A DNA stretch of 53,060 nucleotides from an uncultured Bacteroidales bacterium. Its GTDB lineage: Bacteria > Bacteroidota > Bacteroidia > Bacteroidales > Bacteroidaceae. Position 1 is the first letter of the stretch; each line of letters opens with the position of its first letter. The notes beneath the pieces were generated by a model. That model saw nothing but the letters and a program-made list of their open reading frames with translations. It did no database searches and was not told the origin of the DNA. Shown one piece after another: positions 11,864 to 39,940 of the stretch. Location of the stretch: contig CACZUX010000023.1 of NCBI GenBank assembly GCA_902784475.1, positions 1 to 53,060 on the forward strand, read 5' to 3'. A program made the position numbers and the translations under genes.

Positions 11864-12832
11864 ATGAAAAACTTTAAAATCATCACCGTTTCCGCTTTTA
11901 GCCTCATACTTTCTGCCTGTGGCGGCAAGTCTGTTGATATCGTCATTCCCGACAACAATTGCCCCAACGACAAGACACTGGTGACGAAAGCTTTGAACGG
12001 CGACGAAGAGGCCGGATTGCAAATCGCCCACATGTACTATAACGGCGAGGGAGTGATACAGGACTACACTGAAGCCATCAAATGGTACAGATACTGGGCG
12101 GAGAGAGGTAATCCCTATGCTCAATATTATATGGGCATCTGCCATGATGAGGGTCGTGGCCTTGAAGCCAGTCTCACCAAGGCGATGGACTACTACAAGC
12201 AGAGCTTTTTGGAGTTCAAATCCCGTGCAGAAAAGGGGGACAAGGATGCCATGCTCTATTTGGGCAAGTTGTATTCCCAGGGTAAATATGTCACGAAGGA
12301 CCTGTCTGCTGCAGTGAAATGGTACCGCGAAGCGGCGGAGCAGGGTGATGCGAAGGCCCAGTACACGCTGGGTTCATGCTACGATGAGGGTCGCGGCGTG
12401 GCAAGAAACAGTGAGGAGGCCGTGAAGTGGTACCGTCAGGCGGCCGATCAGGGCAATGCCGAAGCGCAATGTGCATTAGGTGCCTGCTTCGAGGAAGGAC
12501 GCGGCGTGGAGAAGTCAGACACAGAAGCCGTGAAGTGGTATCGCCTTTCGGCCGAGCAGGGCAATGCCGATGCACAGTGTAATCTGGGCTACTGCTACGA
12601 CGAGGGTATCGGTGTGGAGCAATCGGCCGGAGAGGCCGTCAACTGGTATCGGCTTTCAGCCGAGCAGGGTAATGCCACCGCGCAGAACAATCTCGGCTAC
12701 TGCTACGAGACCGGAACCGGAGTAGAGGCATCGTTGAATGAAGCCATCAAATGGTATAAACTCAGTGCCAAACAGGGCAACGAGAGCTCCATCGCTAATC
12801 TGCGGTCCAAGGGCATTACAGACTACGATTAA
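11864..12832 (+). CDS. Sel1-repeat lipoprotein
   Basis: A 322-residue protein with a lipoprotein signal (ITVSAFSLILSACGGK, lipobox LSAC) followed by a tandem array of about seven to eight Sel1-like repeats. Each repeat is around 36 residues and shows the pattern A...LG.CY.EGRGV......A.KWYR.AAEQGNA, for example AQYTLGSCYDEGRGV and AQCNLGYCYDEGIGV. Sel1 repeats form a superhelical alpha-solenoid used for protein-protein contacts, so this is probably a scaffold in the periplasm or on the outer-membrane lipid layer. The partner cannot be told from sequence. It has its own promoter; the AraC regulator gene follows 42 bases downstream. Confidence 0.88.
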   Translation: MKNFKIITVSAFSLILSACGGKSVDIVIPDNNCPNDKTLVTKALNGDEEAGLQIAHMYYNGEGVIQDYTEAIKWYRYWAERGNPYAQYYMGICHDEGRGLEASLTKAMDYYKQSFLEFKSRAEKGDKDAMLYLGKLYSQGKYVTKDLSAAVKWYREAAEQGDAKAQYTLGSCYDEGRGVARNSEEAVKWYRQAADQGNAEAQCALGACFEEGRGVEKSDTEAVKWYRLSAEQGNADAQCNLGYCYDEGIGVEQSAGEAVNWYRLSAEQGNATAQNNLGYCYETGTGVEASLNEAIKWYKLSAKQGNESSIANLRSKGITDYD

Positions 12833-21782: not shown

Positions 21783-23656
21783 ATGACGGAAGAGGAACGT
21801 ATCAGTGTCGCCTATCAGCGCCTCATCAAGACTTATCTGGCATCGCCCCACCGCAAGAAGGTGGACCTGATTGACCGGGCCTACAAGTTTGCCCGTCAGG
21901 CTCATGAAGGCGTGCGACGTATTTCCGGCGAGCCCTACATCATGCATCCGTTGGCGGTGGCACAAATCGTGTCGGAAGAGCTCGGACTGGGCAGCACCAG
22001 CATTTGTGCCGCGCTGCTCCACGATGTGGTGGAAGATACGGAATACACGATGGAGGACATCGGCAATATCTTCGGTCCGAAAATTGCCGAAATCGTGGAC
22101 GGCGTGACGAAAATTTCCGGCGGCATCTTCGGCGATCAAGCCTCTGTGCAGGCGGAAAATTTCAAGAAGTTGCTCCTGACGATGAGCAACGACATCCGGG
22201 TGATTCTGGTGAAAATAGCCGATCGCCTGCAGGGCATGCGCACTCTGGGCAGTCAGTTGCCGGCCAAGCAGTATAAGATTGCGGGTGAGACGCTCTATAT
22301 TTATGCACCCTTGGCCAACCGTCTCGGTCTGAACAAGATTAAAGAGGAGTTGGAGGACCTGGCCTTCCGCTACGAGCAGCCTGCAGCCTACACCCAGATA
22401 CAGACCCGACTCGGGGAGCAGAAGCAGGATCTCATCGGCATCTTTGACGAGTTCACGGCGCCCATTCGCGAGAAACTTGATGCAGCAGGACTTCACTACG
22501 ATATCAAGGCGCGCATCAAGTCGCCCTACAGCATCTGGTGCAAGATGCAGAATAAGAAGGTGTCCTTCGAGGAGGTGTACGACCTCCTGGCCGTGCGCAT
22601 CGTCTTCGACACGCCCCGACAGGAGGACGAAGTGGAGGAATGCTGGCGCATCTACGCCATTGCCTCGTCCATCTACCGCCCGCACCCGGAGCGTCTGCGC
22701 GATTGGCTCTCACATCCGAAGGCCAACGGCTATCAGGCTCTGCAGACGACGCTCATGTCGAAGCGCGGCCGCTGGATAGAGTTGCAGATTCGTTCGCGCC
22801 GTATGGACGAAATTGCAGAGCAGGGTTTTGCGGCCCATTGGAAGTATAAGGAAGGAGGCAAGGGAACCGAAGACAGCGAGAACGAGCTCAACCGCTGGCT
22901 CTCTACCATCAAGGAGATATTGGACGATCCTCAGCCCAATGCGGTGGATTTTCTCAACACCATCAAGCTGAACCTCTATGCCAGCTCAACACCATCAAGC
23001 TGAACCTCTATGCCAGCGAGATATTCGTCGTGACCCCCAAGGGCGACTTCAAGACAATGCCGGCGGGCAGCACCGTGCTCGACTTCGCCTTCTCCATCCA
23101 CACCTTCCTCGGCACCCATTGCATCGGCGCCAAGGTCAATCACAAACTGGAGGGTTTGGGTTATCATCTCGAAAGCGGCGACCAGGTGGAAATCCTCACC
23201 GGTAAGCAGAACCGCGTGTCCAAGGAGTGGCTCGACTACGCCACCACCGCCAAAGCCCGCAGCAAAATCACTTCGATGCTCAAACGCAACGACCGCGAGT
23301 TGCAGCGTGTGGGCAAAGAACGTCTGGCGGCGCTGTTTGAGGAGTTGGACATTGAGCGCAACAGCTACTTGGAGGACCGGCTTTGCGAGTTGCACGGCGT
23401 GCGCTTGAGAGAGGAACTTTATCAGGCCATTGGGAGCGGCAGCATCGTGCTTGACAAGAACGACCGCAATATCATACTGGGAAAGAAGCACCGCAATTGG
23501 CTGCGTCACCTGCCGCTCATCGGGCGCAAGAAAAAGGGTATAGGGCAAACAGCACAAACGGTAGTGCTCCAAGTGGAGGTGCAGGCCGACGATGCCGACG
23601 ATGTTGTGCGCGAATTGGAAAAGATGGGCTTAAAGGCCGTTAAGAAGTTTACGTAG
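21783..23656 (+). pseudogene. relA: RelA/SpoT (p)ppGpp synthetase/hydrolase, frameshifted by a 32-bp duplication
   Basis: Two frames make one RSH protein. The first (21783-23003, 406 residues) holds the HD hydrolase domain (GEPYIMHPLAVA, LLHDVVEDTEYT, then IADRLQGMRTL) and the synthetase domain (RIKSPYSIWCKM, VYDLLAVRIVF, then HPKANGYQALQTTL and EIQIRS-like ELQIRSRRMDEIAEQGFAAHWKYK). It then runs off frame into SSTPSS and a stop. The second (23030-23656) continues with the TGS domain (TPKGDFKTMPAGSTVLDFAFSIHTF). A perfect tandem 32-bp duplication (22953-23016) lies exactly at the break; removing one copy restores NLYASEIFVVTPKGD in a single frame of about 614 residues. The C-terminal part is also short: relatives run to about 730 residues with zinc-finger-like and ACT domains. 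Both catalytic domains could still be made as the truncated first frame. Confidence 0.92.
22953..23016 (+). repeat. Perfect 32-bp tandem duplication inside relA/spoT
   Basis: Two adjacent identical 32-base units, 22953-22984 and 22985-23016, each beginning CTCAACACCATCAAGC and ending TATGCCAG. As 32 is not a multiple of three, the duplication shifts the reading frame and truncates the protein just before its TGS domain. Confidence 0.97.
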
Positions 23657-38304: not shown

Positions 38305-38870
38305 ATGCGTGGCTTACCCATCAAATCCGAGCGTGCCAACACCGTAACCCACCTGGCGGGGGCCGCTTTTGCCCTCTCGTCCATCTGGATGGTGTGGCCT
38401 GCGGTGCACCACAGCTGGCAGATGGCCTTCGGTGTCTTGTTTTTCATCGTCGGCATGTTCATCATGTTTGCCCTGAGCGCCTCCTATCATTGGGTGTATC
38501 CGGGCCGTGCGAAGCGCGTCATGCGCATCTTCGACCACATTGGCATCTACGTCATGATTGCCTGCTCCTACACGCCGCCGTCCTCGGGGGCATCTTCTAT
38601 AAGGTGTTCGCCATGGGCCGCTTCCCCCGCCTTTCGCTGGCGATTTATCTGACGATGGGATGGAGCGTCTTGCTGGTCTTCAAGCCCGTCATGGCGCAGC
38701 TCTCTCCTCTGGCCATTGCGCTGCTGGTGGCCGAGGGACTGATTTACTCTGCCGGCACGTGGTTTTTCGCCCACGACGACAAGAAGCACTTCCACGCCAT
38801 CTGGCACATCTTTGTCCTCCTGGGTTCCATGGCCCATTGGAGCGTGGTGCTCTGCCTGCTGCTGGAGTGA
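38305..38870 (+). pseudogene. Hemolysin III / YqfA (PAQR-type) membrane protein, frameshifted
   Basis: The first frame (from ATG 38305) encodes the N-terminal part: RANTVTHLAGAAFAL, then SASYHWVYP and RVMRIFDHIGIYVMIACSYTP, a canonical hemolysin III sequence with the conserved His/Asp residues. Directly after SYTP the frame changes. The other frame, ending at 38870, continues with AVLGGIFYKVFAMGRF, LTMGWSVLLVFKP and FHAIWHIFVLLGSMAHW, the family's C-terminal half. About 20 residues normally between SYTP and the next helix (a stretch of the FALVTL..GW type) are absent, so a roughly 60-70 base out-of-frame deletion is the simplest explanation. The protein would lose its last three helices and is probably non-functional. 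Confidence 0.85.
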
Positions 38871-39632: not shown

Positions 39633-39940
39633 ACTTCAGCCAGTCGAGCAGCTCGATGGTGCCGGCATCCTGCTCGATGTCCAGCGCGGGGACGTATTCC
39701 GTCATCTTCGAACGAGCCCGTGTAGCTGCGGAAAATCACCTGAAAGGTCGAGTCGGTCTCGTCGCCCAGCGTGACATACATCAGGTCGGGATGCTCCCGG
39801 GCAGGGCTCCAGTCGTAGTTGCTGTGGCAGTAGTTGCTGACGCCCTCGCGGGCCATATCGGCCGTGATGACAGCGGTCTTGCCGCCGCAGGACGACAGCA
39901 GCAGGAGCGACAGGGCAAAGAAAAGGGCAAACGGCTTCAC
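39631..39940 (-). pseudogene. Lipoprotein gene, probably frameshifted near its 3' end
   Basis: A GTG at 39940, 14 bases after the cysS stop, opens VKPFALFFALSLLLLSSCGG, a lipoprotein signal with the lipobox Cys at about residue 18. The mature part reads ADMAREGVSNYCHSNYDW and later DETDSTFQVIFRSYTGSFE. After that the frame gives arginine- and histidine-rich, unnatural sequence to a stop at 39614. Another frame at the same place reads MTEYVPALDIEQDAGTIELLDWLK and stops at 39631, which looks like the genuine C-terminus. A short out-of-frame loss between the two is inferred. The function is unknown; it lies downstream of cysS on the same strand. Confidence 0.6.

Follow-up and report, generated by a model that had tools for sequence, protein, structure and literature searches.

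In the draft genome of an uncultured Bacteroidales bacterium, a long RSH (RelA/SpoT) gene is split by a perfect 32-base tandem duplication. Relatives carry a single copy of the unit, and other genes of the same draft are broken by lesions about as long. The most likely explanation is therefore an assembly artefact and not a switch. The window, i.e., the whole stretch of DNA analyzed (53,060 nucleotides), is one whole contig of this draft, which consists of 84 contigs, has a size of 2.10 Mb, and is 80.9% complete.

RSH gene split by a perfect duplication

The two adjacent identical 32-base units reported at positions 22953–23016 in the initial annotation were confirmed by exact match. The first copy occupies positions 22953–22984 and the second one positions 22985–23016, both on the plus strand. 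The match between the copies extends 1 base beyond the unit, and such a pair of matches was found in none of 100 dinucleotide shuffles. The doubled unit encodes the linker located directly before the TGS domain.

The first open frame (21783–23003, plus strand) encodes 406 aa and stops within the second copy. It matched the Pfam families HD_4 (7.9e-45) and RelA_SpoT (1.8e-34), and the HD and synthetase domains of a long RSH are thus present. The TGS domain (1.8e-17), which in a long RSH belongs to the same frame, is found in a different frame in the draft. Counted from its first possible start, a GTG at 23030, this second frame (23030–23656, plus strand, 208 aa) comprises TGS and the following region, and TGS is the sole Pfam match of the short C-terminal part. 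The frames and the domain matches bear out two initial statements, that the frameshift lies between the synthetase and TGS domains and that HD and synthetase remain intact in the first frame. The GTG at 23030 could be the start of the second frame, and nothing supports its use. An internal promoter or restart was considered and rejected, the one promoter-like match (23139–23167) being at consensus level only. Long RSHs (Rel) of Bacteroidales have HD, synthetase, and TGS in the same usual order as the gene of the draft; unlike in these proteins, the frame of the draft's gene is broken and its second part has no AH/RIS or ACT match.

Purifying selection on the sequence downstream of the break is strong, as measured against G034, the genome of the nearest relative. 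The dN/dS ratio was 0.011 for residues 1–166 of the second part (dS 0.23) and 0.06 across all 208 residues, the excess coming mostly from the last 42. The value of 0.011 over 166 codons rules out an old pseudogene, and the RSH lesion is therefore either very recent or not real.

A single copy of the unit in relatives

The first (406 aa) and second (208 aa) parts of the RSH were searched separately, which yielded 114 entries comprising 113 loci and the window region. The two parts are 44 bases apart in three entries, all of which represent the window's own locus. In 110 entries, the spacing is 12 bases and both parts are in one frame; these are 29 loci of the same genus, the 80 listed loci from named genomes, and a paralogue from the draft itself. 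One entry, a 237-aa synthetase-domain protein, has no second part.

Comparison with close relatives had been proposed initially as a check on the duplication, and among the matches listed all 109 relatives read (29 of the same genus and 80 from named genomes, L012 and L050, at least, apparently being the same contig) have a single copy of the unit in one frame. Their identity to the RSH of the draft, among the matches listed, was 67%–99% for the first part and 42%–98% for the second one. Of 36 genomes of the same genus, 29 are among the loci read, six more have 29–32 fewer bases across the site, as judged by coordinates, and G009 had no match. Two copies were thus found only in this draft among the loci compared in the matches listed, as would be the case for an artefact private to one assembly. 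Copy-number variation among related genomes, expected for a switch, was not observed, since none of the 109 relatives among the matches listed has the second copy.

Other duplications in the draft

Exact tandem repeats were searched for in 61 stretches of the draft that together make up 1,167,931 bases, or roughly 55% of it. Five repeats with a unit of at least 18 bases were found. One, a 21-base repeat of low complexity, is intergenic. The remaining four consist of two copies each of a unit whose length is not divisible by three, and all are located inside genes, where they shift the frame: 32 bases in the RSH gene, 22 bases in a class I/II aminotransferase gene, 20 bases in the QueH gene, and 19 bases in a rhamnogalacturonan-lyase-like gene. 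The match run exceeds the unit by 1, 0, 0, and 0 bases, respectively, indicating almost no flanking homology. No clustering of the duplications at contig ends was seen, and no N runs marking joins were found in the stretches of the draft scanned. In addition, an open frame of the window contains tandem repeats of 108 bases (12419–12757; two to three copies with a similarity of about 75%), which resemble repeats of the Sel1 type.

For comparison with other genomes, a criterion was set afterwards: 2.0–2.2 copies, an excess of no more than 3 bases, and a unit of at least 18 bases that is not a multiple of three. No repeats of this kind were found in G031 (346,345 bases), G061 (400,000 bases), and the genus loci (99,302 bases), while the 80 named loci among the matches listed contained one in 550,834 bases (L041); other repeats in these loci, e.g., in L017, L054, L079, and L114, fell outside by copy number or excess. 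The resulting excess, four in 1.17 Mb of the draft versus one in 1.40 Mb of controls, was not significant under this post hoc criterion (p 0.14), and exact duplications alone were therefore dropped as proof of an artefact. Being a patchy draft as well, G034 was not used as a control. It has three repeats of this type, namely an AT-rich one of 25 bases and two others of 22 and 28 bases. The latter two (L158 1617–1663 and L171 3065–3120) appear to break open frames.

Missing pieces and polarity of the lesions

The alignment of G034 to the draft covered 178,549 bases and contained 9,128 mismatches and 159 gaps. Relative to G034, the draft has sharp-edged losses of 37, 49, 59, 61, and 95 bases inside genes, and at another site 47 bases are missing with a further 6-base gap alongside. 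The G034 alleles matched an Na/H exchanger at the 49-base site, LptD at the 59-base site (PF19838, E 8.7e-162), TrhA/HlyIII at the 61-base site, and a BNR-repeat protein at the 95-base site, while the 37-base site had a match to a DUF4369/AhpC-TSA protein. The 61-base loss, which falls between positions 38576 and 38577 of the window in a TrhA/HlyIII-family gene on the plus strand, is a second private lesion in the window; these bases are present in G034, G031, and G030. Between positions 39709 and 39710 (no strand assigned), 35 bases are absent by alignment to G034 alone, and the corresponding G034 frame had no Pfam match. G034 has mid-size losses of its own, e.g., 43, 152, and 23 bases are missing there.

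Among frames of at least 150 aa, 28 isolated frame-changing differences between the draft and G034 were found, comprising 14 of 18–200 bases, 4 of 4–17 bases, and 10 of 1–2 bases. Automatic labeling by the longest frame assigned 11 of the breaks to the draft and 13 to G034, with 4 unclear, and this label is unreliable because antisense frames compete. Since antisense frames muddied both the tblastn frame breaks and the longest-frame polarity, seven lesions were instead compared with third genomes by alignment or match coordinates; the 35-, 37-, and 95-base deletions and the 47-base one with its 6-base gap were left out.

All seven lesions, which range from 19 to 61 bases, proved to be private to the draft, the further relatives agreeing against it. 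The evidence comprised 109 relatives among the matches listed for the additional 32 bases in the RSH gene, five relatives for the additional 22 bases in the aminotransferase gene, three of five relatives matched for both the additional 20 bases in the QueH gene and the additional 19 bases in the lyase gene, three relatives for the loss of 61 bases in the TrhA gene, and three for the loss of 59 bases in lptD. For the 49-base loss in the exchanger gene, these were G034 and G031, with G030 matched on one side only. At the QueH and lyase sites, G031 and G030 show additional differences of 3 and 15 bases, and the G034 aminotransferase gene has its own additional 1-base deletion. Lesions like that of the RSH gene are thus present in unrelated conserved genes of the same assembly, the excess of duplications alone not being significant.

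Other RSH genes and the shortened C-terminus

The broken gene had been described initially as the only visible RelA/SpoT gene, which is correct within the window; genome-wide, the draft contains four RelA_SpoT matches, including the broken gene. It is therefore not the only alarmone gene of the cell, and a role as the sole RSH is ruled out. A long RSH of 728 aa contains TGS, AH/RIS, and ACT, and its HD region lacks an HDxxED motif. Another long RSH, of 620 aa (L004 769–2631; G000:C18), has a strong HD match as well as TGS and ACT, while its synthetase domain is matched weakly, with 44 bits; as judged from these domains, it is perhaps a hydrolase only. The 237-aa protein (L003 1486–2199; G000:C41) has a synthetase domain without an HD match and is about 42% identical to the first part of the broken RSH.

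The second part of the RSH is only 208–210 aa long in the draft (G000; gene at 21783–23656 of the window) and in G034, G031, and G030 (L006, L007, and L008). It is 320–359 aa long in 104 of the 109 relatives among the matches listed, with L044 (114 aa) and L114 (295 aa) as outliers. The AH/RIS (CC/RIS) and ACT domains, expected in a long RSH apart from known exceptions, had no match in the window, L007, or L008, while both were matched in L010 and L023. TGS and the helical region of the shortened RSH remain constrained, as compared with G034. The C-terminal shortening in this species and three sister species is a real side finding. According to PMC3153485, some long RSHs are known to deviate by a reduced C-terminus, e.g., RshC, Salinispora RshA, and Francisella RelA, so the shortening in the sister species is a further instance and not a new type. 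As described there, these proteins lack C-terminal domains, as do those of the four sister species; they come from other lineages, whereas the RSH of the sister species keeps TGS and the following helical region.

Origin of the duplication

The homology-free duplications and the deletions of a few dozen bases, scattered across unrelated genes, would fit careless joining of contig ends. We infer that contig ends may have been joined without proper alignment; at the RSH gene, a 32-base overlap would have been written twice, and at other sites missing bases would have been closed up. A literature search found no paper describing such contig-join scars. Since many Gram-negative bacteria cannot live without LptD, a living cell with all of these lesions is unlikely; any single lesion taken separately is possible as a real mutation. 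Counting against an artefact, 10 of the 28 frame-changing differences are only 1–2 bases long, so not all are mid-size, and the automatic label gave G034 as many breaks as the draft. The same applies to the lack of N runs, the scattered location of the duplications relative to contig ends, and their nonsignificant excess. The duplication could instead be a real, recent mutation private to one strain, which would then produce a protein consisting solely of the HD and synthetase domains while other RSHs cover ribosome-dependent control. We consider this rather unlikely given the strong constraint on the C-terminal part and the other private lesions of the draft, which break unrelated conserved genes, lptD included, even though short tandem duplications do arise spontaneously and neither the position in the contig, which is unremarkable, nor N runs, which are almost absent, hint at a join. 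Since the 728-aa (TGS, AH/RIS, ACT) and 620-aa (HD, TGS, ACT) long RSHs are kept in the genome, loss of the C-terminus of the broken gene could be tolerated.

Of the options offered in the initial annotation (a reversible switch, a mutation, or an assembly error), the assembly error is thus favored, while the switch placed in its headline found no support. Under the latter, slippage between one and two copies would place the catalytic domains under C-terminal control or free them from it. Loss of one copy by slippage is in principle possible for a perfect tandem repeat of 32 bases, a length not divisible by three; the absence of the second copy from all 109 relatives read among the matches listed, the strong constraint behind the break, and the similar private lesions elsewhere in the draft make such a switch extremely improbable. 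In addition, no inverted repeats were found at the duplication and its folding is not unusual (z 0.05), and phase variation was rejected on these grounds together with the relatives. A more elaborate version, in which a lineage already without CC and ACT has one strain whose reversible duplication yields a ribosome-uncoupled enzyme of HD and synthetase, with a second long RSH sensing starvation, is very improbable. The proposed release of the catalytic domains also disagrees with the S. aureus Rel deleted for its C-terminal domain (CTD), which, according to PMC6053245, is synthetase-OFF/hydrolase-ON, the mutant mounting no starvation response; TGS is required there for activation of synthesis. 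Like the first frame, if expressed, this protein consists of HD and synthetase only; it differs in being engineered, and its outcome was not freed synthesis (PMC6053245). Activation of synthesis would thus not be an expected result of release.

If the switch were true, alarmone control would have a simple genetic toggle, and if the duplication is real in any form, the effect expected by analogy would be loss of response and not freed synthesis. With assembly error as the preferred explanation, the living cell would have an ordinary single-copy long RSH that comprises HD, synthetase, and TGS followed by a shortened C-terminus, without any switching. When a conserved gene of a draft is interrupted by a short, perfect tandem duplication, other lesions of that assembly should be examined for comparison before any function is assigned to the duplication.
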